From Physcia stellaris (taxonomy: Eukaryota > Ascomycota > Lecanoromycetes > Caliciales > Physciaceae): DNA of 64,000 bases. Positions 2,861 through 59,125 of the stretch are shown one piece after another (position 1 is the stretch's first letter; each line of letters starts with the position of its first letter). The notes below the pieces were generated by a model. It saw only the letters and a list, made by a program, of their open reading frames with translations. It made no database searches and was not told the origin of the DNA. A program made the position numbers and the translations under genes. The DNA is taken from contig JABSSW010000016.1 in the NCBI GenBank assembly GCA_018902385.1, positions 496,001 through 560,000 of the forward strand, read 5' to 3'.

Positions 2861-3204
2861 CGGGAGTATCGTACAATCAAAGTATGGGACACGAAGTCCT
2901 TTAAGCGTCGATCAGGGAAGTTTGGAACCTGGGAATGGCCAGTGAGCTTAACATATATACTCTTCACAGCTGCAGCTGACTACCCTAGACAGAACAATGC
3001 TCTGAAAAGATGCAATTGTGCTGCTCACTCATCGTTAGTAAATTTTCAAATTTTTAAATCGAAAACGATAAAATGTCGAAAAACAAATCGAAATTTGACA
3101 TTTTATCAAACATGTTAATAAATGATAAAAATAATGCAAAATAATAATACAATTTAAAACATTAATTTATATATAACACGATATCAAATTTTAAAATAAT
3201 GCAT
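2861..3204. other. Transition from gene-bearing DNA into the AT-rich block
   Basis: Balanced sequence continues to about 3030. Composition then drops abruptly to AT-rich sequence full of TCGA, CGA and AAATC words. No gene is visible. The AT-rich flank reaches 170 bp beyond the first recognisable LTR, consistent with mutation spreading out of the repeat or with an older unrecognised insertion. Confidence 0.6.
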
Positions 3205-3523
3205 TGTAAAAAATAAAATTCAAAATTTTCGAAAATACGATTCGCATTTCGTCAAACAATTCGATTATCGAAATTCGAATGATTTCGAAAAAAATCAATT
3301 TCAATTATTTTACAATTCGATCAACAATAAATTCAACAAATTCATATTGTCAATCGAAATCGATCGAATTCGTACGATTAAATAAATAAAATGTAAATAA
3401 AAAACAATTACAAAACGTAATTTGTTTTGTAATGATTAATAAATCAATATATTACATTTCAAATTATATATTTTTAATGTCAATAATTCATTAAATTATA
3501 TTATTTCTAATACGAATTTTACA
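3205..3523 (+). repeat. LTR copy A (family 1), heavily mutated
   Basis: A 319-bp copy of a repeat that occurs four times in the window (3205-3523, 8167-8486, 17200-17519, 21113-21432). It starts TGTAAAAAAT and ends TTTTACA, as LTRs do (TG...CA). The sequence after it (3524 onward) matches that after LTR copy B for about 380 bp, so this is a 5' LTR followed by internal sequence. No matching 3' partner was found in the window. Confidence 0.85.
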
Positions 3524-4272
3524 TTTTAATCGTTATCATATTTCAAAATGATGTCATTCGTGTATATTTAACAAAATACAATTTTGTTGTTTTGCATATA
3601 TCATGTCGAATTTTGATAATGATTTGTTTTTTGAATTTGTCGAAAATGTTAACGTATTTTTTTGATTGATTTATTACAAACAACAAATCGAAAAAAATCA
3701 TAAAAAAAAAATCAAATTGCAAATTCGAAATATCGAACGTTCGAAATTTGTAATTTTTATTTCATTTGTTTTCGTTTTTGTTTTTGATTTTGTTTGAAAA
3801 TTTTTCGTCATGAAAATTATCGAAACGATTTCGAATCAATATGAAAACGAAAATTACAAAAAATGAAAAAAATATTGCAAACAAATGAAAAGTCAATTCA
3901 CGCAAAACAATTTGATTATTTCGATAATACAATCGAAATTTTGACGTTTAATTTCGATTCGAAAAATTTTTTGATTGAAATTATTAATAAAATTTGCTTA
4001 ACGTGATTGTTTATTGATGAATTTCAAAAAAAAAAAATCGAAAATTGTTTTGTTCATTCGTAAAAAATTTTTCGATTAATTCATTTTTTTTTATTCAATA
4101 TTAATTTTTACAACGTTTCATTTTAATTATTTTTATTTTTTGACGAATTAAATCATTGACGACAATTTGATTGAATAACAATTAATTTTCGATATCAATC
4201 AATCGAAATTGTAAATCGAAAAATGTTTGTGTATACACGACGTTTTGACGTTTTTGTTTTTTTAATTGTATA
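3524..4272 (+). mobile_element. Internal 5' fragment of family-1 LTR element (fossil)
   Basis: Remnant of the element headed by LTR copy A. The first 380 bp (to about 3905) are shared with the element at 8487-8880, including the start of a gag-like frame at 3603; then the two diverge. At 4272 it is interrupted by the Copia element described next; its continuation, if preserved, would lie from about 19450. Broken, with many disruptions. Confidence 0.6.
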
Positions 4273-7200
4273 TGTTGAAAAATACGATGACAGAAAATTG
4301 AAATATGAACACGAATAAAATCAGAATTTCTGATTGATCGATTAAACGAAACGTGTCAAAATCGATTATTATTAAAAACATTTGCGCAATCAAAATGTAT
4401 TTATTTCTATACGTAATTTCGATAATATTGCATGCAATGCAATGACAATCATTCATATTCGTTCAATAAATTATGAAATTCGAATTAACATAAATTTTTT
4501 GTGATTGTCAACGTCAATCGTTCGATCACGAAATTACGAAAATTAAACAATTGTGAAAAAAATTCATCGTTCGATCGCGTTAAAACAATAAAAAAAATTC
4601 ACACGATTCGATCGACAATTTCACGAAAAAATACACGACAATAAAGAAAATTTACATTCGAATATATATTTACATATCATATCACGCATCATGAACGATT
4701 TCGAATTCAACAAATTCAACGCGTGTCGAGTTTGCGATATTTTTATTCGTCAAAATTGCGAAAAATGATTCAAATTAATGAAACAATGATTTATCGACGA
4801 AAAAATTTGAATAATCGTCGATTCAAATTATGTGTCGAAATTGTTATCGAATGATTTTCGAAACTCAAAATGAAATGTCGATTTGAATTTTGATGAAAAA
4901 AAAATTGAAAAAAAATTCGACGTAAAAACACAATATCAATTTATCGAATGTATCGATGACGATGATCAAAAATTGATAACGAAATTGAAAATTGTCAAAA
5001 AAAATTGAAAAATTTTTGTCAACAAATACAAACAAAAATTTGTTACAATTGAACGACAATTGTTGCAAAAATTCATGAATTACAAAAAATTTTCAAACGT
5101 GATTATTAAAATCGTTTATATCGATATCATCAAAAAAATCGCAAAATTGCAAACATGCAATCAAACATAACGAATTTGTTCAAATCAAAACGTCGTTTTT
5201 AAACATTTTTAGCATTTTTGTTTATCGAATACGATGTCATTCGTGATGCAATCGACGCATAAAACAATTTCGATATCGATAAATTTATTCAAAAATTGCA
5301 AAAAAAAACACAATTCATTGCAAACAAAATCGTCGAATCGACATTGATAATCAAAAACAATTGTCGTCAATTTTATCGCATATTTCAACGACGATTTTTC
5401 AATTTCGACAAAAATTTTCGTCGTTTCAAAATTAAAACGAAAAAAACGAAATGTTTTTTTTGCGATGATTTACATCGAATCGCAAAATGTGATTTTTTGA
5501 AAAAATTAAAAAAATGAACGAAAAAACAAAAAATCAAGAAATTTTTACGCAAAAATAAAAAGCACAAAACGTATAACGTCGTCGATTTTTTTTCGTTTAA
5601 CAACAATTCAAATTTCGACATCGACATCGATTCAAACAATGAAAAACACATGAAAAAAATCGTCGTTTTATTCAAAAAATTGATCAATAAATTTTTCAAA
5701 TTCGTTTGAATTGCAAACATTGACGTTTCGTTTCACATGATTGACAATTTTCGATTTTTTAATAAATTTTTCAAATCGATTAAAAAGCGCACGATTAAAA
5801 TCGAAAAAAAAAATTGTATTTAAATCAATGTGATTCAATGACGATACGCGTCAAAAACGATAAAAACACGTTGACGAAAATGTTTTATGTATTTGATTTC
5901 GACGTCAATTTTTTATTCGACAAATATTTTATCAAGAAAAAATTGATAAAAAATTTCAACGACGATAATTTGTTTATGCGTATTAAACAAAACGTTGAAA
6001 TATTTCGAACATTTGTTCAAAAAAATATTTACATAATAAACAAAATCACATCAAAATTTAAAAAGTTTGTATTGTCAACAAACAACATGATGTTTGCAAT
6101 TAAATTTTTTGAAATTTTGTTTGTTTCATTTGCAATGTCAACAATCGTGAATTGAAACGAAATTTTGCTCGATACAAATATTGATTTTCGAAATGATGTC
6201 GAAATCGATTTTCAATTATCAAATGTTGATTCGAATGTCGATTCAAATGTTAATCAAAAAAACGTGATTTGTACGAATTATGATATCGACGTTTTGATTA
6301 TATGAAATTTGCAAAATTTCGAAATTTGCACAAAGTCACAATTTTACGCAAATCAATTTTTATTGTTGAAAATCGCAACGATTTATGCAAAATATGTGCG
6401 ATTACGAAAATGATTAATGCATATAATCGTTGTTTAATCGAACGCAAAATTCATATATTGAAATTGATATTTATCGATATTTGTGAATTTTTATTCGTTT
6501 CAAAACTCGATTACGAATATTTTTTAAAAATCGTGAATAATCATTTTCGACGAACGTGAATTTTATTTTTTCGCAAACGAATCGATGCATCAAAAGTTTT
6601 CAACAAATAAAAATTGAAAATGAAATTAGAAATTCAACGAAAATTACAAACAATACGTTGTGACAACGTCAAAAAATTGAAATTTATATTCGATTTTTGA
6701 TGCGAATTTATCGACATTGTTTCACAATACATCGTTTCGTATAATTTCATTCAGAATGACGTAATAAAACGTGTCATAAAAACGATCGAAAATCAAATTC
6801 GAACAATGATTCAAAATGCAAAATTGTTTATAAAATTTTAATTTAAAACAAAAAAAAAACAAATGCATATATTCGCAATCGTATAAATACGAAATCAGTA
6901 ATTGACGACAATTTAACAAATTTTATTGAAATTTGAACAAATATCAAATTGTCAATAAATCACATACGCGTTTGAGAATGCAAATGTTATTCGTTCGTTA
7001 ATATCAAATTATTGTTTGAAAAAAATAAAAAAAATAAATTTGTCAATACAGAAAAATCAAACGTGTTTATAAATTATGACGAAAACATCACGATTCAATA
7101 CAAAATATGAATTTTCGATCGTCGTAATGTCATCAAACATCACAAAATAATGTTTTTTGAACGTGAAAAATGAAAAAATGAATCGTTGAATTTGTTCACG

Positions 7201-8166
7201 ATTACAATGAACGAATTATTTGAAAAACGATTTGTCAAAAAATCATGCAAAATAATTTTTGTATTTGCAATCGTTTCGATGACATCGACGTTTGTATCAA
7301 TATTTGTTGCATCAATTTTTGCGAAATTTTCGATTTTTATTGCGTTTATGATTTCGGAAAAAAAAATTCAATCAATGCACATGAAAAAAAAACGATGAAT
7401 TTATCGATATATCAGATAGAAAAAATGAAATCAACAAATTTATCGCGAAATCGACAATTCAAACGCGTGTTAAATTAGCATTTTTCACGAAATTTTCACG
7501 CATGATACAGCAATTTTTTCACGTGACAATTTTTAAACGTAAACGAAATATCACGAACGAAAAAAAGCGAAATAAATATCGCAACAAGATTGCACGCGTC
7601 ATGATGATTTTTTTAATCGAAAATTTTGATATATGCGAACACGATGAATGAATTTTATTTGCAACAACAAAAAAAATAAATCGACAATTCGTTGAAAAAT
7701 TAATCATATTTGTGTTCGAAAATTATCAAAAAACTGTCAATGATTTCATTTGAAATAAATTCTGATTCGAAATTATTCAAATCGAATTGACAACGTTAAT
7801 AATTAATGAAATTTGAAACGTCGTCATTTCATCGAAAAACGTCAATATCGTTATTAATAAATGAATGTTCAAAATCAAAATGCATATGAATGATACGTTG
7901 AACAAATTGAAAATCAAATTCGTTGCAAGAAATTTTTCGTAAATATATGAAATAAATTATACAAATATTTTTGTTTCAATTGTCAAATTCGATATTTTTC
8001 GTTTGTTTTTTGTTATCGTCGCGTTGAAAAATTTCGAATGTTATTAAATGAACGTCAACAATGTTTTCACGAAATCATTTTTAAAGAAAATAATTTACAT
8101 GAAATCGTCATTCGACGTGAATTTATTTTTCGAATAAACATTTTTGATTCGTCGAAATTTTTATTA

Positions 8167-8486
8167 TGTAAAAAATAAAAATTTAAAATTTTCGAAAATG
8201 CGATTCGCATTTCGTCAAACAATTCGATTATCGAAATTCGAATGATTTCGAAAAAAATCAATTTTAATCATTTTACAATTCGATCAACGATAAATTCAAC
8301 AAATTCATATTGTCAATCGAAATCGTTCGAATTCGTACGATTGAATAAATAAAATATGAATAAAAAACAATTGCAAAACGTAATTTGTTTTGTAACGATT
8401 AATAAATCAATATATTACATTTCAAATTATACATTTTTGATGTCAATAATTCATTAAATTATATTATTTTTAATACGAATTTTATA
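8167..8486 (+). repeat. LTR copy B (5' LTR of the inserted family-1 element)
   Basis: Starts TGTAAAAAAT. Aligns end to end with copies A, C and D. Followed by internal gag-like sequence as in copy A. Confidence 0.85.
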
Positions 8487-10426
8487 TTTTAATTGTTATC
8501 ATATTTCAGAATGATATCATTCGTGTATATTTAACAAAACACAATTTTGTTGTTTCGCATATATCATGTCGAATTTTGATAATGATTTGCTTTTTGAATT
8601 TGTCGAAAATGTTGATTTATTTTTTTGATTGATTTATTACAAACAACAAATCGAAAAAAATCACAAAAAAAATCAAATTCAAAATTCGAATTGTCGAACG
8701 TTTGAAATTTGCAATTTTTATTTCATTTATTTTTGTTTTTGTTTTTGTTTTTGATTTTGTTTGAAAATTTTTCGTCATGAAAATTATCGAAACAACATTG
8801 AATCAATATGAAAAAAAAAATTACAAAAAGTGAAAAAAATATTGCAAACAAATAAAAAATCAATTCACGCAAAACAACGTGAATCACATGATTCAATTTT
8901 CGAATTTGATCAAAATCGCATATATTGATATTTATTTTAAATCAAACAGCAATGCGAACAAATTTTGAAACGCAAAAATCGATTTTCATTCAAACAAACA
9001 ATACATTTGAATCGAATTCAAGATTTTTTTTAAAAACGACATCGAACGAACAATCACGTTGCAACAAAATTTTTTGAAAAAATATCGCAAACACAAACAG
9101 AATCACAATCAATCGATTAAAAATTACAATGTCGAACGAATAAATATGTTTGTTGAATTGAAATTCGAATTCAAATTCACGAAAACAATGAAATTTAACG
9201 ATTTTCGTGACGAATTATGTTTGAAATTTCGTTGCATGTTTTTTAAAAAAAAGAAAATTTTCACAAAAACGAAATTGTTTGAACGACTCAAGCGTATGAA
9301 AAACGTTTAAATTTTGAAAAAAAAATTCAAGAATTTCAAAAAACGTAAAATTTCGTTCGATATTGACAATTCTGAAAACGAAAACGAAAAATTCAAAATT
9401 GCGAAATCTAAAAATAAAAAAATTAAAAATATTAACAAAATCAATTCGAATCACGAATCAATTATATCGAAAAATACTCGAATGTATCGCTAATTCGTTA
9501 ACGAATTCAAAAAAATTCAAAACAAAAATAATTGTATAAATTGTGACAAATCAAATCATCAAATCGAAATTTGCACAAACAAGAAAAACAAAATCATTTT
9601 CGTTGATTAAATTTTTGAACAGTCAAAAAATTAATCGATTTGATGATTTTCGCTCAAATCGTTAAAAAAAAATTTTTTGAATTTTGATTTCGATACGTCG
9701 TTTTTTTCAAACATGAACAAAAATCATGTTAACAAAAAAAAAAAACGACGCAAAAAATTTAGAAAATTTGTGATTCGTAAATGCGTTAAAATCAAAATTA
9801 ACATACAAAACAAAAATCAAATTTGAAACGAATCGAAAACAATATTCGATACAAAAACGAAAATTAATTTGATAAATCATGTTTATGCGAAAAAATTCGA
9901 TTTTCGTCGTTTCGAAATTTTAAATTGTAATGCAATAACAATTGACAATCATCGTTTGAAAACATATGACGTTTATTTCGTACAATTCGAAATGTCAAAC
10001 GTCAAAGAAATCAATCGTTTTTTCGAAAAATCGTTTTTGATCGTGAATTTGAATTGAAATTTAACGTTAAACATGTTTTGAATACAACTTTCGAAAATCA
10101 AAATGAATTGAAACGACGACAATATCAAGACTTGACGTTGCAAAACAAAGCATTTCATTTTCACGACGAATCGTATCGAAAATATCGAATCAAAACAATT
10201 GATCATAAACGTCATCGATAACGAAACTGAAACGTATTTCATGTTCGTACGAATGTATATTGACAAACAATTCGACATGCATGAAATGCACGTTTCAAAA
10301 CGAATTCAAATAAAATTTGTCTTGATTGAAATAAAAAGAAAATTTGATGTCAAAATCACGTTTTTCGATATTTTGAAAACGTATGAAAAATTCGATAACG
10401 AAAATAAAATTTACGAATTATCTGTT

Positions 10427-10708
10427 TGTAAAAAGCATGACATCAAAGATGTATAGCAAAAACAATAGTATGACTAGACTAATAATTGCAAAATTAATTG
10501 CTTTGCAGATTTCGCAATATATATTCGTTCTGTCTGTTGAATTGTACGAATTTCTGAGTTTTTGCGCATGAATATTTAATCGATATGCGATATGCGTGTT
10601 GAATGACTAGTATGATGAAATTGATCGTTTCATGAATTGATGTTTCGAATCTGTTTGACGAAATCCGATTCGCATTTTTTGCAAATTTTGAATTTTGAGT
10701 TTTTTACA
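10427..10708 (-). repeat. LTR of the third-family element (3' copy on the minus strand)
   Basis: 282 bp, aligned without gaps that I noticed to 16093-16374. The roughly two dozen differences between the copies are nearly all transitions at CpT/CpC or their complements. Confidence 0.8.
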
Positions 10709-13700
10709 CGCGCTCTTTTCTAAACATCGAAATTTTTGAAATAACAAAATCAAATTCGAATCATTGTTGAAATTATACGCTGTTGCATTCATTAAACTTG
10801 AAAAATCATTGTGACTGTGATTTTCGCATTCGAAATTCTTTGATTTGAAAAAATCACTATAATCGTGATTTTCGCATCGAATTCATTGATTTGAAAAATC
10901 ATTGTGATCGTGATTTTCGCATCGAATATTTTTTTCGATTCATAATCAATCTGCGATAAAAATCTGAAAATCATCTTCGTGAGTGACTCAAAAAAAGCAT
11001 GATTTGATGACTTCATTGTTTGCTGTTTTCAATATCGAAAGTTTGATTTCGTACAATTCACAACTTTCGATCTGATAATTGACAATTGACTGAATGACAG
11101 AAAAATCGAATTCGAATTCTTCTTTACTTTTTTATTCTTTTATTTTTTACATCGAATCGATGAGTTGCTCGAGAGAGATGATTAAACGCGAAAAACGTCG
11201 AATACTTTATTCTCATTGATGAAATAAACGCGTTCGCATTGAATACATCAAATTTCGAAAATTTTCTCGATTTTCTGTTTTTATTTCACGTTCATAATAT
11301 TCAACGCTCAGTTAGATCGAACAGCAATCTTTGAAAATGATTTTGACACGATTCAGTTCTTCATGCGTCGTAAGTTCTTGACAATAAGCAGTACAAAATT
11401 GATGACATGAAATCGTGATGTTTAACATGATTGTTCGAGTCAATTGCTTCATCAATGAAATTATATTTGTAAACATTGAACGTGTCATGATATTGAATTG
11501 CTTTCGAGTCGATTGCATCATTAGAAGATTGCATTCGCTGTGTTATTGATTTTCAAATATCTTTTCGCTGTACGATTTGGTCGAGACTTGATCACGATGT
11601 TGACATGACTATCTTCGAATCAATTGTTTTATCGATGAATTGCATTTACAGAACACGCTTGAACGCGTCATAATATTTGATGTCAAACTGTTCGAATCAT
11701 TGCATCGTCAAAAAGATTCTCGTTGTGTGATTTGATCATGATTTGTTGTACAGTTTGATTTTGATCAGTAATTATTTTTTGTCAATGTCGATGTCTTATA
11801 AGTTGATACGTGAGTTTAGCGAAATTCTGATGAAATTTTTTTTTCTTTTTTAGTTTGAACTTCTTCAGAAAACAAGACGTCGTTTGAATATAACTATGCG
11901 ATAAACTCATTTTTTGATGAATTACGCATTGCAGATTATTCTGTCATGAACAGTCAATTGTTCGTCAATTGTGTTCAGAATCAGAAAAGTCATGAAATTG
12001 TGCTGTGTGCGAGATTTTTTGCGATCATTTGCACATTTCATGCTTTACTCTTCGATAGTTCGTTATGAAATTCACATAAAGTTAGTTCATATCAATGCTC
12101 GTTGAAATGAAACGATAGTTTATCGTGTAAATAGAATCGAGTTGTTTGTTGCACATTTTCGATTCATGCTCGCATGCTTAGATTTTGTCAAGATGTTTGC
12201 AACATTTTTGCAGTTTATGATTTTACGCACATGTTAAAATATAACGAGATGTCATTGACGCATGTCTCGCAATTTAATTTCTGTATGCGCTGTTCGAACG
12301 AAATGTTTTGCAATTGATCTAATCTCGCTTTCGACTTAATGCACTACACATGAAAATATAAATATACAGAAATTCTGACGAGATGTCTGCAGCACTTTTG
12401 CAATTTATGACTTCGTATAATTTTTCAATTTTTACATGTTTAGATTCTGACGAGACGCTCTAGTTGACAATTTGTCTCGTAATTTACGATCATGTTTGCA
12501 TGCTAAAATCGTGTTCGATGTTCGACAAATCATCTCGTTTGTTGATTCGATTTACAATATTTTCGTATTGATTTTCAAATGCGTTTCACATCGAGATCGA
12601 TCAGATGCGTTTCACATCAATTGTTCGATCAAATGCGTTTCACATCGATGAATCGATCAAAGATTGTTTTGCAATAGCAACGTCTCTTCTAATGTCAATG
12701 CGAACGTGATGTATCAAAAGTAACTAATTTTTGTTTCACAATTGCACACGAGATTTACGTCAATGAACGAATTCAAACATTGAGAGTCGTCGTCATTGTT
12801 TACATCAAATTCGTGAACATGTTTTTGCGTAATCATTTTCATGAAAATCGACTCGAGAATTGTTGCACTATTCAGTATTATTGTACTCGTCGAGATTCAC
12901 GTCTGATGCACGTTCGAGAGCAAAAACGAAATCGTCGAATTCGCACGTCACTCGTTGTTAAAATTCGAATTCGCAATTTTTTTCGAAAATTATCCGAATG
13001 CGCGATAGTCTTCATGAAATTTGTACTCGAAAACGTATTCGTTTCATTGATTTGATTTTGCGTGCTGCTTGAATCGTATCGAAATGATTTGAAAAATCAC
13101 GTTGTGACTTTCGCATTTAGCAGATTCGAATTCATCGACGTTTGCAAAAATCGTTGCAATCACGACATCAAACTGACGATTGTTTCAGTTTCTCATTCAG
13201 TAATTTTCTGATTTGATTGTCTGAATAAAGTCATTCGCTTTGCAGAATCTTTGTTGCCGAAACGATAATCGATGACGAGATTGTGTTCATCGTGCTTGCT
13301 GAAATTTCGATGATGTTATGATCAAAAATTTCTTGTGAATTGTTTCGTTCTGAGCGTTGATTTTCATGCGAACGATTTAGTCGAATCGAACTGTTGCAAA
13401 ATAAATGCTTTCAGAACATTTCAAGAGTACGCTTCGTCGACGAAAATCTGAAAATCGAAATTTTGTATAGCGATTCATTTGATTGCATTCGCGCATCTCG
13501 AATGAAAACGAGTTTTGATCGTTCATACTATAATTCGCAAAGTATATGATTTTTGCCCGAATACATTTTAACGTATAGACTAGACGTTTCGTCAAAAATC
13601 TATTTTGCAAACGAATCAACGAAACAAAAAATGAATGTACTCAACGATTTATTTAAACGTCGCGTAGCGATTATATTTCGTTTCAAACGAAATCTGTTGC

Positions 13701-16092
13701 ATGTCGCATGTCGCAATTATATAAAAATTTGTAACTGCGAGACTCGTTGCTCGTGCAATCATATGATTTGTACAGTTTCGATTGCGAGCCTTCGTCGAGC
13801 GATAATAATCAAATAATTTATAAAGCTCGCATAGATGTCAAATTTGTTCTGTGCAAAATTTTCTGCACGTTACATTCGTGACATCTCGTTCTGACGTTTT
13901 TTATGCTCGTCATCTGATTTTACGCGAAATCTGTTGTATAGATGTTGCATTTCAACGATTCAAATAGACGCAAAGTCGTCGTCGAGCAGTTCAACGATAT
14001 CATTGACGTTTTCGTCGAACGATATATTTCGTTTTTGACGTTGTTTGCGCTCGTCATTTGCTTTACATAAAGTTTGCTATATGTTGCATTTGTAGATATA
14101 GATGTGAAATTTTCGCCGAGCAATTATATGATAGAACGAACGTTTTCGTCGAGCGATTTCTTGATCAAATGATAGATTGACTCGTAGAAAGTAACAGAAT
14201 CGAAAAATTTTTTGATAAGATCGTTTTCGATGTTTGCACAACATATCTTCGTTGCTTAAATACTCAATCAAGTATATTCTCGATACTGTTAGTCATCTTT
14301 CGATAAGAAATAAATGAAACTATGAGATGATTTTTTGCTCAATTGCATGCTCGTGATTCATTGCGAACTCGTCAAACAAATTGTATATTCTTCGAGATCT
14401 GTTGCACGTTTGTTGAGCGTGTTGTATGTTCGTCAAATTCAGAATTCGTCAAATTCATGATTCGAAAATTCGCGAACTTCTTTGTCGATATTTATGTTTT
14501 CGATCTTCGATAAAACTAAATTTATACGAACTCATTGCTCAAAATGCGTTTCATGCGAAATCATATTCTCGCTACGATGTATTCGTACGAATACATCGAG
14601 AGCACAATTCTGATTATAAATAATAGAATCGACTGATTTTTTCGACTCGATGTGCTCGAAACGATTTATGACGAAAAGAATTGCATTGAAAAATGTCAAA
14701 ATCGAATTTAATCGATATATTCATTTTGATTTCCGATAATTGCATTCAGAGCAATTTCACGAACTCGACTGATTTAAATCAACTCTTAGAAGTTTTCGTT
14801 CAGAAAGCGTTTACAGTTGCTTTTGTTCAAAAATGATACTCGTACGAAACAGACGTCATAAATCTGAATTGATTGTTGTTTAAAATCATAACGTCGTGAC
14901 TAAAAATGTGAAACGAAACTGTTTTGAGTTCAGCGAAAACATTATTTCTCAAATTGATTTTTGCATTTGAAATCGATGTAATCTCGTATTCATATCATGA
15001 ATTTTATTGCAATTAGTCATGCAAAACTTTTTTGCGACGATGTTTGATGATAATGTCAGCAAAGTTCGTCGCGAGAAACTCGTTGTTGCTATTGTTGATT
15101 GCTTGATTGTTGAAATCTTCACTATACGATGTGAACTCGATCGAAAATGATCAATTGACTCAATTATTGTTTTTTCATGATCAGTTTTTGCAAAATCAAC
15201 ATCTTTTTTGTGAAACAATATGAAACATTTGCATGATCTCAAATACAATTCTGCTTGTTGCATTGACAGTTCAAACGATCGAAACGTCGACGATACAATG
15301 TATTTTGATTGATTTTCTGTTAGTTTTATCGAACGTGAATTTCTTATCGTCTTTTTGATTTCGACTGTATCGAATTCATATGATTTCTCGATCACGTGCT
15401 TTTGTTGAAATCGTCATGTGATTTTCTGAACAGAATATTTTGTTATGTTTTTGTCAAAATCATCGTTCGATATGTTTTTGACGATGTATTGATATTCTAG
15501 TTCTTTAGAACGTTTTTGATATTCAGATTCTTGATGTTTTACAGTGAAAACAGAACGATCGAAATCGTTGCAATTGTTTTTCGATGACTGAAATATAAAA
15601 TATGAAAAATTCATTTCGCATGAATGTTTCGACAAATTGCGCAGATTTTTTCAATCATTTTAACGTTCTTGATTTGTCGTTATTGTTATGAATAGTCGAA
15701 GATTCGAAATGACTGACGTTTGTCGCTGAAAACGTCAACGAGATCGAATGATTGAAATCATTTGTGTAAGCTCGTTGTACTGAGATAGTTTGCTCTTGAA
15801 ATCTTGTTTCGAGATTTCTTTTTTGTAACTTTTCAAACTCAGATTCGCTTTCTAGATTGAACAATGAGTGATAACAAAATTATACAATCAATCGTGAGTG
15901 CGATATTTAGCTGTATAATGCAGACTTTTCGTTTTCGATCTGCTTCTCGTTCAGACTTTCGTAAAATCGATATCTCGTTCGAATCGATCGTCGAGAACGT
16001 CGTAGTGCATTCAATCGTTGAAAACACTCAATTGTTTGATTGCTAGCTATACACGAATGATGCTAATCTGCTGATTATTGTAATTATTAGAA

Positions 16093-16374
16093 TGTAAAAG
16101 ACATGACATCAGAAATGTATAGCAGAGACAATAGTATGACTAAACTAATAATTGCAGAATTAATTGTTTTGCAAATCTCGCAATATATACTCGTTCTGTC
16201 TGTTGAATTGTACGAATTTCTGAGTTTTTGCGCATGAATATTTAGTCGATATGCAATATGCGTGTTAAATGACTAGTATGATGAAACTGATCGTCTCATG
16301 AGTTGATGTTTCGAATTTGTTTGACGAGATTCGATTCGCACTTTCTGCAAACTTTGAATTTTGAATTTCTTACA
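16093..16374 (-). repeat. LTR of the third-family element (5' copy on the minus strand)
   Basis: 282-bp partner of 10427-10708. It is the less mutated of the two, retaining more CpT and CpC sites. Confidence 0.8.
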
Positions 16375-17199
16375 CAAATTTTACAACGAATTCGATTTCT
16401 ATTATTTGATAAAATGAAAAAATTATAAAAACGCGATTTGAAAATCTGCATCGTTTGTTAAACATTTTCGGAAAATTTTGCGACAATTTCACAACGAAAA
16501 TTCAAAAAAATTTGATGTCAATAAGAAAACAAATCATCGAAAATCACGAAAAAAAATGAATTGAAATATTTATTGCATGTTAACACATTTTCGTTTTCAA
16601 AAATTTTGTGTGTTATTTATTGTTTAAAATTTACGACGCATGAAAAATTAAATTGTGTCAAAAATATTTTCAGAAATTGTTGTTCGATTTGATCGAACGA
16701 TAAATCGTTAAATAAAAAATGTGAAATAAAATAATAAAAAATTTCGAAAATTTGAATATCAATGCGATCGCGATTAATGAACGTTTATCGCGTTACACAT
16801 TTTTTCATGATATCGATGTTGATATTCGAAATGAAAAAATGAAAAAATGAAAAAATGTTCGAATTCAAAATTTTTTGTCAACAAATCAATTGTCAATCAT
16901 TATATCGAAAATTGTGAATGATACGATATCAAACATTCGATCATGAAAACAACAAACAATTGATTTATCAAATTATATTTTTTTTGAATCATTCAAGAAA
17001 ATGTTTTTTCAAGTTTTTAACGCAAATTGATTATTGAATTCGATCAAAAATATTTCGAAATGAAAAAATCACGATTATAATGATTTTTCAAATCAATGCA
17101 AAATCAAAACAAACAAAACACGTCAAAACAAGCAGAATACGTCAAAGTTTCTGTTAACATGTTGATTTCAAAAAATTTCGATGCTTAAAAAAAAGCGTA

Positions 17200-17519
17200 T
17201 GTAAAAAATAAAAATTCAAAATTTTCGAAAATGCGATTCGCATTTCGTCAAACAATTCGATTATCGAAATTCGAATGATTTCGAAAAAAATCAATTTCAA
17301 TCATTTTACAATTCGATCAACGATAAATTCAACAAATTCATATTATCAATCGAAATCGATCGAATTCGTACGATTGAATAAATAAAATGTGAATAAAAAG
17401 CAATTGCAAAACGTAATTTGTTTTGTAACGATTAATAAATCAATATATTACATTTCAAATTATACATTTTTGATGTCAATAATTCATTAGATTATACTAT
17501 TTCTAGTACGAATTTTACA
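17200..17519 (+). repeat. LTR copy C (3' LTR of the inserted family-1 element)
   Basis: 320 bp, the best preserved of the three AT-rich copies. After it the Copia reverse-transcriptase similarity resumes at once. Confidence 0.85.
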
Positions 17520-18719
17520 TATAAATTGAAACAAACGACTAGAAATTGACACGAACGTTGCGTAAAAAAATTGCACAAATTGAATTTCGAACAGATTTCG
17601 ATTGATTTTTGCATGTTTCGTCATAAAAAACGAAAAATCATATTATTTTTTTACGTGAATGACATTTTTGTTGTCGTCAAATTCAACGAGCAAATCAATT
17701 GATTCAAAGATGAATTCAAAAAAATATTCAAAATCAAAAATTTGAAAAAAATAAAAAAAAAATTTGACATTAAAATCATTCGCGATCGTAAAAAACGAAT
17801 TATTCGATTGAATCAAATTCATTATTTGAACGAAATATTGAATGAATTGCATATGAACATCGATAAACACGAACGCACGAAATTATTCATGAACGATTAC
17901 GATTTATTCAAATCAATTGAATCGAACGACGAACGAATTGATTCAAAAAATTATCAACACAAAATTGAAAAGTTCATGTATGTTGTCATACACATTCGTT
18001 CAAATATCGTTTTCGCATTAAAACGATTAAGTCAATATTTTAATAATTTTGCGAAACATCATGACAAAATAATGAAAATTTTATTTCGTTACATTCGATC
18101 GATCATCGATTTAAATTTTGTATACGACTTGAAATTGAACAACAATGAAAATTTCAAAATCAAAATTTATTCGAATTTTGATTACGCAATCGATAAATTG
18201 AACAAAAAATCGATTTTCGAATACGTTTACATGTTCGTTGAGAAATCAATATTTTGAATGAATCGCAAACAAAAATCGATCATTATTTCAATCATTGAAA
18301 TCGAATATATGATTTTATCGACATGCGTTAAAAAAAATTATGAATAGCACAATTTTTTCGAAATTTGAATTTCATCAAATATTTCGAAATCGAATTAAAT
18401 CAAATAGCAATTATTCAAAACGATAAACATGAAATTTGTTCATCAATACAATTTTTGAAAAATAATCAAATCGTTAATTTGTTGATCAAAAACGCACATA
18501 TTCACGAACGATCAAAACACATTGATGTGATTTATCATAACATCAAAAATTTGTATCAGAAAAATTTAATTCAATTGAATTACGTTTCAAATGCAAACAT
18601 GATAATCGATGATTTGATTAAATCATTGTCAAAAAAATAAATTTAAAAAATTCGTGAAACAATTGAAATTGAAAAAATCGAAAATCAAATAAATTTTTTT
18701 CAATAATCAAAATTGTTTT

Positions 18720-19109
18720 TTTCATATAAAAACGTTGATGATTCAATCGTATACATTTGACGAATTATAATCGAAAACAAAATTTCGTTGATCGTGTTCA
18801 AATCTGAATTGCATGATAATTCAAAATGATTTTTTTTAAAATCGTTCGAATTTAATTTTTTGATCAAAAAAAATTAATGTTTTTTTCGTCAATAATTGAA
18901 AAAGTTCGAGTTTGATAAAAGTCACGTCATTTTTTTCATTTTAAAACGATGATGATTCGATTGTACGAATTTAACAAATTATAATTGAAAACAAAAATTC
19001 GTTGATCGTGTTTAAATTCGAATTGCATGATAATTCAAAATGATTTTTTTCGAAATCGTTCGAATTCGATTTTTTGATCAAAGAAATTCAGTGTTTTTTT
19101 CATCAATGA
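18720..19109 (+). repeat. Two-copy direct repeat with 214-bp spacing
   Basis: About 175 bp at 18720-18895 recur at 18934-19109 with scattered transitions. They lie between the end of the Copia coding region and its right LTR, so they are a tandem duplication in the element's 3' untranslated part. Confidence 0.7.
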
Positions 19110-19449
19110 ACGTAAAAATTGAAATTCAGTAAAAATTACGTCGTTGCACGAATTAGCATTCAATGAAAATCACAATCAATACAAAAATTGAAATTCAATG
19201 AAAGTCGCATTCACGAATGCAATGAACATGATTGTCATCGAGTGAAAATGTTGAAAAATACGATGACAAAAAATTGAAATATGAACACGAATAAAATCAA
19301 AATTTCTGATTGATCGATTAAACGAAACGTGTTAAAATCGATCATTATTAAAAACATTTGCGCAATCAAAATGTATTTATTTTTGTACGTAATTTCGATA
19401 ATATTGCATGCAATGCAATGACAATCATTTACATTCGTTCAATAATATA

Positions 19450-21107
19450 ATTGTTTTTGTTTGTTTTTGTTAAATTTTTTGTTTTAATTTTTTGATGATA
19501 TTCATTTTTTTTAAAAACATGAAAATATTTTGTATTTAATTCGTTAATCGTTCAATAACGTTTTTTTAATTTATCAATATTTTTTATCATGAATGAAATT
19601 GATGATTTGACATCTTTGTCAATTAATTTAAAATATAAATTAATTGTTTTTTTTTTCACAATAATAATTTTTTGATTGACGAATTCGAATTTTATGATAA
19701 ATCGTTCATGAAAATGTTTATGTCGAAATTGACGTTAAAATTTAATGATTGAAAATGTTATTTGAAAATCATTTTGACGAATAAACGTGTAAAAATTTAA
19801 ATTTTCATCTTTTTGTGAATTTTTTACATTTTTTTTTTATTTTCTTGTTCGAAGTCGAAAATGTCATGTTTCAATAATGAATTCGAAAAGTTGAAAATTT
19901 TAAACTCGTATGATTTTTTTTGAATAATTTGATTTTAAATATTCAACATTTGTTTTATACGATTTAAACGTGTGTTAAAAATCGATTTTTTGAAAAATTG
20001 ATTTTATTGATTTGCGAAAAATTTCGATATTTGATAAATGAATGTTTTTTCGTCAAATAAATCAAAGTAATGAATTGATTTTTTAATTCGATCGATACGT
20101 TCACGATTCGTCATATTAAAAATGATATGTATTGACGACATTTCAGATTTTGACTTCGAATGAATGAAAAAATTAAGTCGAATCAACGTAAAGATAAAAC
20201 GTTAAACGTTAATAATGTTTTGATTTTTTATTTTTAATTTCAAATATGTTTTGAACTTGCTTGATGTGAAATAACAAGAAATAAAAATAAAAACAAATGT
20301 CGTAAATTTCGTAACGTTGTTTGAATAATAAATAAATAAAATTTAACATTTTAAAATAAATGTTCAATGCAAAACAACATCGAATTTAACATTTTGATTT
20401 ACAATTCACGATATTTTCGTCAAAATTGAATTTTTCAATTCACGATATTTCTGTCAAAGTTGAATAACATTCGAAAAATTATTATTGTGTTATACATTGA
20501 TTACAGTTTTCGATTCACGATATTCTCGTCAAAATCGAATAATTTCGAAAATTACAAAATATTATATTGATATTCTCAATCGTAATTTTCAATTTACGAT
20601 ATTTTCGTCAAAATTGAATGAATAATGATAAATTGAAGATTTTTTTTTCTCGTTCGAAATTAAATAATTCGAACACGATGTTTTCGAATTATCGACAAAT
20701 AATTACAATCGTTGAGTAATCGTCGTTGTCAATCGATTGAATAATTAATATTGTGTCAAAAAGTCGTCGCATGTAATTAATTGTATTAAAATTGACGAAA
20801 ATATTAATTATGCAAAAATATTAATTACATGTTGAAAAATTTTCTATTTGCGATAATCATTCGATTAATCGTTTCGTTGATTCGCAAATTCGTTTCGTTC
20901 GAACATAACAAAAATCGAAATCAAAATCATCACATTATAAAATAAATGTTTGATGAATTTTGTTTGTTATATAAAATTAAAAGAAAAAAACTTTAAATTA
21001 ATGTCAATTAATTATCATTTTGTATTCAATGAATCGTTCGACTTCGTAAATTTTTACATGTATTTTTCTATTTGCAAAATCACATCTTGTTTGTGCTTCT
21101 ATCAGTG
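19450..21107. other. AT-rich remnant right of the Copia element
   Basis: No coding domain or LTR is recognisable. By position it should hold the right half of the oldest family-1 element (LTR copy A), but I see no similarity that proves it. It contains the four-copy hairpin repeat at 20402-20618. Balanced composition returns at about 21095. Confidence 0.5.
20402..20618. repeat. Four copies of a 29-bp imperfect hairpin
   Basis: Near-identical copies start at 20402, 20436, 20511 and 20590. Each begins CAATTCACGATATT or a transition variant and ends AAAATTGAA. The ends CAATT/AATTG and inner ACGA/TCGT are complementary, so each can fold. Spacing is irregular (34, 75, 79 bp). Confidence 0.7.
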
Positions 21108-21112
21108 CATGC

Positions 21113-21432
21113 TATAAAGAATAAGAGTTCAGAATCTCCGGGTCTGCGGCCCGCATCCCGCCAAGCAACTCGGTTACCGATGTTCGGATGGCTCCGGAGA
21201 GGACCAGTCTCAACCAGCTTACAAATCGGTCAACGATGAACTCAACAAGCTAATCCTTCCAGCCGAAGCCTACCGGATTCGTACGGTTGAGTAGGTAGGA
21301 TGTGGATAAGAAGCAGCTGCAGAACGTAGTCTGTTCTGTAGCGATTAGTAAATCAATATACTACATCTCAAGCTATACATCTCTGGTGCCAATAATCCAT
21401 TAGACTATACTATTCCTAGTACGAGTCTTACA
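21113..21432 (+). repeat. LTR copy D: GC-balanced solo LTR of family 1 with target duplication
   Basis: 320 bp aligning base for base with the AT-rich LTR copies A-C but with its C and G bases intact (for example CCGGGTCTGCGGCCCGCATC near 21141-21160). It is flanked by a perfect 5-bp duplication CATGC (21108-21112 and 21433-21437) and has no internal sequence on either side, so it is a solo LTR. It starts TATAAAG where the other copies start TGTAAA. It sits at the very edge of the AT block, yet is almost unmutated. Confidence 0.88.
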
Positions 21433-56346: not shown

Positions 56347-59125
56347 ATGCAGGTCAAGTCACAGGATATATTATTGTCATGTATTAGCATTCTCCACCCC
56401 CGGTCTTCTTCAGCACTCATCATGGCTCTCGATCATGCACCCGTAGTTCTTCCGTCAACCTTCCGCGATCCTGTGCTCTCATGGTGCCCTCAACGATCGC
56501 GACTCGACTCCCACAAGCGAAATTTTACTCCTCAGGCTCAAGGGCCTCGCTGTCATTCACCTCCTTCCAAACGCCTCAAAACCGCCGCTGCTGTCGACCG
56601 CCCAATAAATTCACCATTCACCACTTCAACCAAGGCGGAAATATCCGTTGGAGACTCTGCCCGAAGACCTAGCACCGAGCAATGGCTCGAGGAGATCGGT
56701 AATGAAATTCCCATGACCGTGGACCCAGGACTTGTCCAACGTAAGCCTGCGAATATACCCTAAAGCTTCGTTGCTAATTACCCTATCTCCAGGTGACCCG
56801 CCGTTCTTCCTTGAGGACAACGCTTCGCCTAGCGCCGGGAATGCGAATCATATGTCGCCTGACTGTTCCCCTCGTGGCCGTTCCAGCTATCGACCCAATG
56901 CTTCATCTCCTAGCGTATTGTGCCATAACTTCCGTGAGAGCAGTGAGGAGTATCGCAGCGTCATTGACGATTTGACGATCGAGAACAAATTGCTTAAGCA
57001 GAAGTTGGAGAAATACGAGCGTTTACGTTGCACTCACTTACAGCATGAGCAACTGTTTGAAGTCAGGATCCACGGCCTGCCAGGTCCCCAGAAACGGGAT
57101 CTTGAGCGGGTCCTTAGGGAGTATACCGCTGGTCTGGATGAGCCTGGCGTTGTGAATGGTGCGAGTGATAATCATCGCTGCTCACCACAGCAGGATTGTC
57201 AGGCCTACACACGACCGAAAGCAGACCCAACACCTGTGGACTCCGCCTATGCCTCGACGGCCGCTTCTGAAAACACTCTCAACAATCGGTTAAAGATGAA
57301 CGGCGTTTACACAGCAGCGAAGACACCTTCAGAGCGAGTTTGCCAACAGACTACGGGATCCGACTTTCACGACCGTCCTGACTGCCTCATCCTCTCACAG
57401 CCAATCCGCATCTCCGAAAGCTCTAAGAAAAAGGCGGTCGTTAAAAGACTGGAGCAGTTATTTACGGGTAGACCCGCAGCTTTTAATCCAGGTAATTCAT
57501 ACCAGCAACAAGATGAATTCCAACCGGGAGTTACGCGCGATAGGCATACTGCAGATGTCGGACCTGCACCAGAAGGAGCACGTGAGGCTAGGATCTCGCC
57601 AACGGAAGTATGCCAAGTTAATGGCACCGTCCAACAATCTCAAAGTCTCCAATCTTCTAATAGCCGTCCTTCATTAACTGGTCTACCTTTGAGCGACATT
57701 TCGCCACGCCAGCGGCCAACAAGACCCATTGATTTGGACATACATCAGACACAAGAAAGCGCCAATAACATGAAATACATTCGGCATCTCGGTTTTGATG
57801 TTTCCACGCCCCATCCCGGAGTAACGGAAGTCAGGGATGGTTGGGTTTACCTGAATTTGCTAATGAGCATGGCGCAGCTACACACCCTAAATGTGACCCA
57901 GGAGTTTGTTCGCAAAGCTGTCATTGACATGAGCTCAAAGTTCGAATTCTCACCCGACGGCCAACAAGTGCGTTGGCTTGGAGGTCTAGATGAATCCTCT
58001 TACGAAGTGAGCTCTGAAGAACATTGCCCGAATAACCCGGAGACTAGCAGATCTGCAGCTTCATCTGCTTCGCCAGAAAAATCAACCAGCCCTCCATACG
58101 CTTCAGGAAGGGGAAGCGGTGGCTTAGCCAGCATCTCGTCCGGCCAGGTTTTTCATTGCAACCCGGTTTGTGCTCATAGATATCCAGGAAATGATCATGG
58201 TATTTCCTGTGAGACCCTGCGAACGGCATGCCACGACTACGATAGTGCTGCTACCAATCTCTCTTGTAGCGCCGACGCAATTCATTCCAGCAACTGGGCT
58301 AATCAAAGAGAACAACGGAAGGCAGACAGTGGGCCCATCATCTTCTACAGCAACCCGTTCTTCTGCACAGATCTCAGTGGCAACGCAAGTTACAACTGTG
58401 GTGATAGTATCCAGTACCTTCGCTGTTCTCTCAGGCCGCTTGGAAGCTCTGATCATTGTGCTACAAGGTCGGGGCTGGGGGGTCTGTTTGAGAAGCGCGG
58501 TCCTCTGTCTCAAGCCACAGAAGCTGCAAGCGACAACGGCAGTAGTACTGCGGTTGAAATGTCCTTGGAATTTCCTGACATGGAGGCCTTATCGCTTGGC
58601 TCCAACGACAATCAACCCCAACCTGTACTGTTGGAAGCCTCGGGCTTGAGCGGCATACAGCCCGAAGACAATTTTATGATCGACGTTCAGATCCAGCACG
58701 ATCGCAGTGGGGGAGCTTATCCACCTCGTATGGATGACCCGAATCTGAAGGAATCTCGTGGCCCCATTGGGCCACGTCTCCGTGCGAATGGGCCCATGCA
58801 GCCGGTCAGCAGCAGAAGGGTGATATCGTCTACGGTGACAGACTTGGCACCCTCTTCGCTGCCATCACCGTCCTACATCTGCTTTCCGTTCTCGTCTTCG
58901 GAGAGTGAGTTTTCAGATAGTGATAGCGATATGCAAGCGGACGAGGTTTCCAGCTTTTCTCACCAAGGCGACCGGCAGGAGGCCAATGAGCCGCTGTTAT
59001 CTGACCGTCTTTCCACCCCGGTCGATCAACCCAGAGGGCTTCTCGGAAGATCAACCGGCTGTCAATTTGGGCGCAGAGGCTCGCAGGATTCGGACGAATC
59101 ATCTGTCAACCTTGTGTCCTCTTGA
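56347..59125 (+). CDS. frq: FREQUENCY-like circadian clock protein
   Basis: Exons 56347-56740 and 56793-59125 (52-bp intron); 908 residues from ATG 56347, or 883 from in-frame ATG 56422. FRQ is the negative arm of the fungal clock: it dimerises, binds FRH and casein kinase 1 and inhibits the White Collar complex. Seen in family order: HPRSSSALIMALDHA (residues about 17-31), the DPPFF block just after the intron, the coiled-coil RSVIDDLTIENKLLKQKLEK at about 185 followed by LFEVRIHGLP, then NMKYIRHLG...DGWVYLNLLMSMAQLH near 457-490 and FEFSPDGQQVRWLGG, and an acidic Ser-rich SESEFSDSDSDMQADE tail at about 830-845. Possible NLS PPSKRLK near 75. The longer start is preferred because HPR..SA resembles other FRQ N-termini. 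Confidence 0.87.

Follow-up and report, generated by a model that had tools for sequence, protein, structure and literature searches.

The question raised by this locus is what kind of mutation produced the AT-rich transposon DNA that fills positions 3050 to 21112 of a stretch of the genome of the lichen fungus Physcia stellaris (Physciaceae), and why its long terminal repeats (LTRs) have lost some cytosines almost completely and kept others. The stretch, below called the window, is the 64,000-nucleotide segment C16:496001-560000 (contig JABSSW010000016.1) of assembly GCA_018902385.1, which has 43.97 Mb in 147 contigs. The published genome comes from an axenic ascospore culture sequenced by Nanopore and Illumina (46.57 Mb, 43.32% GC; PMC7513301); no analysis of repeat-induced point mutation (RIP) was found in the portion of that paper at hand. 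The AT-rich DNA is likely to be transposon DNA that has passed through a RIP-type, repeat-directed C-to-T process with the preference CpC > CpT >> CpA > CpG. This spectrum is seen in two LTR families as well as in a transposon-independent sample of the genome.

The part of the window in question contains the following features (GC is the fraction of G and C; fractions give mutated sites relative to the solo LTR).

3050-10415, no strand: AT-rich mutated block 1, GC 0.242 (composition counted over 3050-10416)
3205-3524, plus strand: heavily mutated copy of LTR family 1 (CpC 32/33, CpT 44/48, CpA 9/33, CpG 2/34)
8167-8486, plus strand: heavily mutated copy of LTR family 1 (CpC 32/33, CpT 45/48, CpA 6/33, CpG 0/34)
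10416-16375, plus strand: element of LTR family 2, nested in older AT-rich DNA, in an intermediate state (GC 0.33)
10427-10708, plus strand: LTR of this element, low-coordinate end
16093-16374, plus strand: LTR of this element, high-coordinate end
16376-21112, no strand: AT-rich mutated block 2, GC 0.232, observed/expected CpC 0.01 and CpT 0.16 over 16376-21000
17200-17519, plus strand: mutated copy of LTR family 1 (CpC 32/33, CpT 40/48, CpA 2/33, CpG 0/34)
21113-21432, plus strand: intact, GC-balanced solo LTR of family 1, the reference copy; it adjoins the mutated DNA and is itself spared

The LTR copies of both families lie where the original prediction, made from the letters of the window, had placed them. 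In block 1 the observed/expected ratio is 0.00 for CpC and 0.09 for CpT as well as 1.32 for CpA and 3.83 for CpG (1, 61, 894 and 824 dinucleotides, respectively, both strands together), and in the flanks of the AT-rich blocks all CpN ratios are about 1. The nested family 2 element has a CpC ratio of 0.03 and a CpT ratio of 0.62; CpC nearly gone with CpT largely present is the first sign that CpC was lost before CpT.

It had been claimed that the three AT-rich copies of family 1 differ from the solo LTR mainly by changes at CpC and CpT. This is indeed the case: 96/99 CpC and 129/144 CpT are mutated vs 16/96 CpA and 2/102 CpG. For a wider set, the best 40 of 61 candidates in the assembly were listed and 30 of them taken as loci, giving 33 aligned copies together with the three from the window. 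Relative to the solo LTR the 30 AT-shifted copies show C-to-T changes at 833/987 CpC, 653/1428 CpT, 79/960 CpA and 4/1020 CpG, and C-to-T plus G-to-A (738 and 831) make up 1569 of the 1885 substitutions. On this reference a majority of the copies is mutated at 32 of the 33 CpC sites and at none of the 34 CpG sites. The mean mutated fraction per site is 0.616 at the 81 CpY sites vs 0.042 at the 67 CpR sites (Y, pyrimidine; R, purine), a difference reached by none of 10,000 relabellings. The base 5' of the cytosine has a slight effect (CpC is mutated at a fraction of.89 after A,.84 after C,.86 after G and.80 after T). Approximately full-length copies form a graded series in which, as GC falls from 0.46 to 0.19, the number of CpC (both strands counted) drops from 33 to zero and that of CpT from 48 to at most 1, with 29-34 CpA and 32-38 CpG kept throughout.

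The choice of the reference does not create this order. Intact family 1 copies differ from each other at some sites. A further tally was restricted to sites where one or both of two additional GC-rich copies share the C of the solo LTR. At these shared-C sites the mutated fractions are 751/867 (CpC), 509/1008 (CpT), 49/900 (CpA) and 4/960 (CpG), corresponding to relative rates of about 100:35:3:0.2. A reference-free tally over all pairs of copies gives the same context order in both LTR families. Both tallies address the concern that the solo LTR is a diverged subfamily, and both leave the order unchanged. The earlier expectation that CpC and CpT are both hit holds; their treatment as equals does not, the CpC rate being about three times that of CpT.

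Family 2 follows the same rule. The two LTRs of the element in the window differ at 30 sites, 27 of which are C/T or G/A; in the 25 of these 27 transitions with an unchanged 3' neighbour the context is CpT in 22 cases and CpC, CpA and CpG in one case each, in line with the rule proposed for this pair. Elsewhere in the assembly the best 40 of 263 candidates were listed and 30 used. The 26 AT-shifted copies, compared with a GC-rich copy, are mutated at 631/725 CpC, 511/823 CpT, 71/874 CpA and 20/520 CpG, with C-to-T plus G-to-A accounting for 1233 of 1338 substitutions and again a slight effect of the 5' neighbour. In neither wider copy set, then, is CpA the dominant mutated context.

The signature extends beyond the window. 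A sample drawn independently of transposons (3 kb near the midpoints of 20 contigs, 60 kb in total, cut into 120 windows of 500 bp) contains 32 windows with GC below 0.35, which hold 5 CpC, 293 CpT, 1920 CpA and 1800 CpG on both strands, with an observed/expected CpG ratio of 3.55. Dinucleotides are ordinary in the 86 sampled windows with GC of at least 0.42, and two windows fall between. The two LTR families and this sample agree with the original statement that neither classical mechanism is at work. Methylation-driven decay of CpG is rejected because CpG is the best-kept context, and CpA-directed RIP of the Neurospora type is rejected because CpA is spared and TpA/ApT is lower in AT-rich (0.47) than in balanced sampled windows (0.67). 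The methylation without mutation that is termed MIP in Ascobolus is rejected as well, the repeats being heavily mutated.

The standard RIP indices move in the wrong direction in the mutated DNA, and the suspicion that they would misjudge this genome is borne out. The usual thresholds are TpA/ApT > 0.89 and (CpA+TpG)/(ApC+GpT) < 1.03 (PMC3897900, in the passages at hand); the second ratio is 1.35 in the AT-rich sampled windows, with the first as given above. In a larger, LTR-biased set of 518 windows that partly overlaps the 60-kb sample, the composite RIP index lies between -0.9 and -1.0 at GC below 0.35 and between -0.5 and -0.7 at GC above 0.40. Stop codons are fewer than the composition would predict. 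In the AT-rich DNA (3060-21100) they occur at 0.058 per codon vs 0.085 in a base shuffle, and the longest open run has 184 codons. TAG, with 102 of 2103 stops, is especially rare, as is expected where TpA is not produced.

The edges of the mutated DNA are sharp. On the left it begins between 3000 and 3060, CpY falling through 15, 7 and 0 per 60 bp across 2940-3120, i.e. within about 60 bp; on the right CpY returns between about 21060 and 21120, close to where the intact LTR begins. Across both edges CpR remains at 5-12 per 60 bp, with 6-12 at the left one. The mutated block is directly adjoined by two open reading frames (ORFs) at 707-2860 that carry separate portions of a haem-peroxidase domain (PF03098), and dinucleotides are ordinary through these ORFs up to about 3000. 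Within the AT-rich block a 214-bp unit is repeated twice head-to-tail at 18716-19143 (82% alike), and the balanced part of the window harbors a gene for the frequency clock protein (FRQ, PF09421) at 56732-59125.

Several features of the copies characterize the mode of action. The strands of family 1 are mutated about equally, as the C-to-T and G-to-A counts given above show. In all ten examined elements (of 11 listed LTR pairs) the two LTRs carry different mutations, which places mutation after integration. Mutations on the same strand are coordinated in family 1 (the observed value was reached in none of 2000 permutations); in the copy L010, for example, 22/30 sites are mutated on the plus strand and 9/37 on the minus strand. 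Mutations accumulate stepwise, with CpC lost before CpT. A process of this kind predicts a mild excess at CpC only in weakly affected elements, and such an excess is found in two of the four LTR2-type elements that are GC-rich and have both LTRs (on contigs C22, C2, C30 and C49; interiors compared as 1.5-kb ends, except that of C22). The C49 element (L063) compared with that of C30 has T at 41/170 CpC vs 38/381 CpR (CpA 19/216, CpG 19/165; p 3e-5), and the C30 element (L061) compared with that of C49 has T at 23/133 CpC vs 30/371 CpR (CpA 16/216, CpG 14/155; p 0.005). Perhaps this is the first stage of the process. Between the LTRs of the GC-rich members C-to-T differences are found at 9/84 CpC, 5/95 CpT, 0/101 CpA and 1/60 CpG.

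The spared copies are compatible with a rule of length or identity of the repeat, read post hoc. Among the 30 family 1 copies taken as loci, of 40 listed, GC-rich ones make up 3 of the 10 without and 0 of the 20 with a partner LTR among the listed matches (Fisher p 0.03), some partners possibly being missing from these matches. A 1,501-base interior piece of the GC-rich C22 element has no other match above 86% and 100 bases among the best 40 of 98 candidates. At least eight dispersed 5S genes, judged by score among the 47 scored of 1658 candidates, exceed the family cut-off, and seven reach at least 76.9 bits. The two LTRs of this C22 element (L067, C22:206753-212945) are identical over the 227 bp compared; it has no ORF of 200 or more amino acids and no CpC/CpT bias, and is a recent, probably non-autonomous insertion.

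In the explanation that we favor, repeats would be recognised by homology, the process would act in the sexual cycle, and a RID-class protein, or a DIM-2-like one together with it, would act with an altered reading of the base that follows the target cytosine. P. stellaris bears apothecia (PMC7513301). The name RIP itself, standing for a homology-directed, premeiotic and RID-dependent process, is an inference from sequence. Of the machinery with altered specificity, or lineage-specific RIP variant, that had been suggested, it is the changed 3'-base preference that the data support.

A search of the assembly with the PF00145 profile gave three loci of C5-methyltransferases, two assigned to the RID class and one labelled DIM-2-like.

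C6:790906-792561 (L001): RID-A, model of 513 amino acids with a DNA_methylase domain
Contig C5: RID-B, model of 934 amino acids (932 in the database) with a DNA_methylase domain; 100% identical to P. stellaris G7Y79_00005g016670
Contig C3: third methyltransferase, with the Pfam domains DNA_methylase and DUF7893

By their relatives and motifs, RID-A and RID-B belong to the RID/Masc1 class. Motif VI of RID-B is EQT, which we take to be the mark of the RID class, and that of RID-A is EET; each form is common among the respective relatives. In a quick tree (no bootstrap, midpoint root) RID-B clusters with lichen proteins as sister to Heterodermia (support by the Shimodaira-Hasegawa-like approximate likelihood ratio test, SH-aLRT, 98), and RID-A falls, together with Heterodermia and unnamed sequences, into a set of 14 rows (96) that also holds the Eurotiomycete DmtA; proteins named DmtA are among its relatives. 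RID-A is a DmtA-type second paralogue in Physciaceae, grouping beside the Eurotiomycete DmtA and not with the lichen RIDs. It may be either an ancient paralogue that was kept or a horizontal gain.

A number of observations weigh against the RIP-type process or do not help it. The strand coordination of family 1 is absent in family 2, where the observed value was reached in 521 of 2000 permutations. The four GC-rich LTR2-type elements mean that not every repeat is strongly mutated; the interiors of those on C22 and C2 have no context bias at all, and that on C22 has a partner matching at 86% along 717 bp. All four interiors are 18-27% diverged by all kinds of substitution, which looks like subfamily divergence. 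The pattern of the spared copies was read post hoc among the matches listed. Confinement of the mutations to duplicated DNA would agree with both LTR families, with the edges in the window and with the 86 ordinary sampled windows, but the 32 AT-rich sampled windows were picked by GC and may include DNA that is not repeated. Searches with 5.8S and with a 3.15-kb piece of ribosomal DNA (rDNA) gave one locus each and no rRNA pseudogene that could serve as a non-transposon test; with a single 5.8S locus (C41:45899-46052) and no pseudogene, the assembly has probably collapsed the rDNA array. The catalytic motifs of RID-A and RID-B are ordinary among 238 relatives (the motif pattern had no match in 47/118 relatives of RID-A and 3/120 of RID-B) and explain no change of preference. 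Finally, the C3 methyltransferase is presumed to be DIM-2-like from its length and an ENV motif and not from a homology search.

The best surviving alternative, although an unlikely one, is cytosine methylation with a preference for CpC and CpT, by the DIM-2-like enzyme or by a RID-class protein working as an ordinary methyltransferase, with later deamination of 5-methylcytosine (5mC) in vegetative growth and without RIP. The third gene, as labelled above, offers a candidate enzyme, the graded series of family 1 copies could equally reflect slow decay or repeated rounds of RIP, and family 2 lacks strand coordination. Moreover, Dim2 causes mitotic C-to-T mutation at CpA in Zymoseptoria (PMC8016269), and DIM-2 of Neurospora favors CpT according to a review (PMC13297926); these and the following literature statements refer to the consulted passages of the cited papers. 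However, 5mC as in Zymoseptoria, which in transposons is concentrated at CpG and hardly ever found at CpT (PMC8016269), would decay CpG, the context changed here at 4/1020 sites. The left edge within about 60 bp, with the spared solo LTR at the other edge, also speaks against this explanation, and the strand coordination in family 1 suggests single-strand events.

Much less probable is deamination of cytosines in all contexts within repeats, with T:G mismatch repair rescuing CpG and CpA. Selective repair could also yield a division of the spectrum by the 3' base and the almost perfect survival of CpG, but it must rescue CpA and CpG and yet separate CpC from CpT threefold. We know of no described fungal repair path of this kind, although no search for one was made. 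It is highly improbable that an AID/APOBEC-like enzyme edited the cDNA of retrotransposons or single-stranded DNA. C-to-T and G-to-A dominate, as editing would have it; the near-equality of the strands and the different mutations in the LTRs of one element lead us to reject cDNA editing, and the 5'-base preference is slight. A search for APOBEC_N gave no match, but the controls were silent likewise and the result is uninformative. That subfamily divergence or assembly error was taken for mutation has a negligible probability: differences among intact LTR copies and the diverged GC-rich interiors would allow it, but the reference-free tallies and the two families agree, the transposon-independent sample shows the same depletion without any alignment, and the assembly combines Nanopore and Illumina data from an axenic culture (PMC7513301).

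The RIP-type process favored here resembles RIP of Neurospora crassa in that C:G is changed to T:A on both strands of AT-rich transposon repeats, the 3' neighbour decides and a RID-class gene is present. It differs in that CpC comes first, CpA and CpG escape, no TpA is created and the RIP indices fall. The order in N. crassa is CpA>CpT>CpG>CpC (PMC5496416) and is nearly inverted in Physcia: the context least used there leads here, and the most used one is almost spared. That the preference can vary among ascomycetes is seen from Trichoderma reesei, where CpA and CpG are used about equally, followed by CpT and then CpC (PMC5496416); CpC is thus least used in this fungus and most used in Physcia. 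CpT signatures have been described in Botrytis, Sclerotinia and Magnaporthe (PMC4352252), and CpT was dominant by alignment in RIP-capable fungi (PMC7882544) and in Tad1 of Neurospora (PMC2621366). Physcia shares with the fungi of CpT signature this target and a RID/Masc1 gene, and the CpT part of the spectrum alone is already known elsewhere; in Botrytis, Sclerotinia, Magnaporthe and Tad1, however, CpA is also mutated, whereas Physcia spares it and CpC leads. Amselem et al. list CpA, CpT and CpG signatures (PMC4352252), and the term CpC is absent from the available text of this paper and of PMC7882544.

In Basidiomycota the signatures are CpG or TpCpG (PMC4352252). In a table for Rhizoctonia solani AG8, heterozygous single-nucleotide polymorphisms (SNPs) are spaced at 214 bp for CpC, 370 for CpG, 422 for CpA and 491 for CpT, while the text names a CpG bias and genes and repeats are changed alike (PMC4014442). 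AG8 is similar to Physcia in its C-to-T bias and in having the most closely spaced SNPs at CpC (as plain spacing); unlike in AG8, the change in Physcia sits in AT-rich transposon DNA and CpG is spared. The AG8 table weighs against full novelty. Dim2-dependent decay in Zymoseptoria tritici is comparable by a DIM-2-type gene (in Physcia so labelled from motif and length) and by C-to-T changes in repeats, but there CpA is mutated, and C-to-T at CpC and CpT is not described in the consulted text (PMC8016269). Repeats of Monilinia contain CpC to TpT double changes alongside CpA RIP (PMC8959702), which differ from the Physcia pattern. According to Badet and Croll 2025, RIP-like defences across 1,239 species share a CpA preference (PMC12543289); in the main text of that paper neither Physcia nor CpC occurs. 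The open-licence literature consulted, which does not cover the older survey of Clutterbuck 2011, contains no ascomycete with CpC leading and CpA spared. The Physcia variant therefore appears to be new among ascomycetes, pending its relatives.

How such a preference arose can be suggested only tentatively. It is possible, though doubtful, that a RID-class enzyme in the lichen lineage switched to a choice gated by a 3' pyrimidine, RIP then reading only CpC and CpT, and that RID-A, found in Physcia, Heterodermia and unnamed sequences beside the Eurotiomycete DmtA, brought this switch. Should the inversion prove clean, selection of the adjacent base would be shown to be capable of almost complete evolutionary change, and nature would have supplied two contrasting enzymes with which to locate the part of RID that senses the base beside the cytosine. 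In practice, scans by TpA/ApT and CpA indices can label a genome as RIP-free despite a signature in 32 of 120 sampled windows. From the genetic code, sparing of CpA and CpG means that CAA, CAG and CGA are not turned into stop codons and only the change of TGG to TGA is open, and the damage to genes by a variant led by CpC and CpT should be mainly missense.

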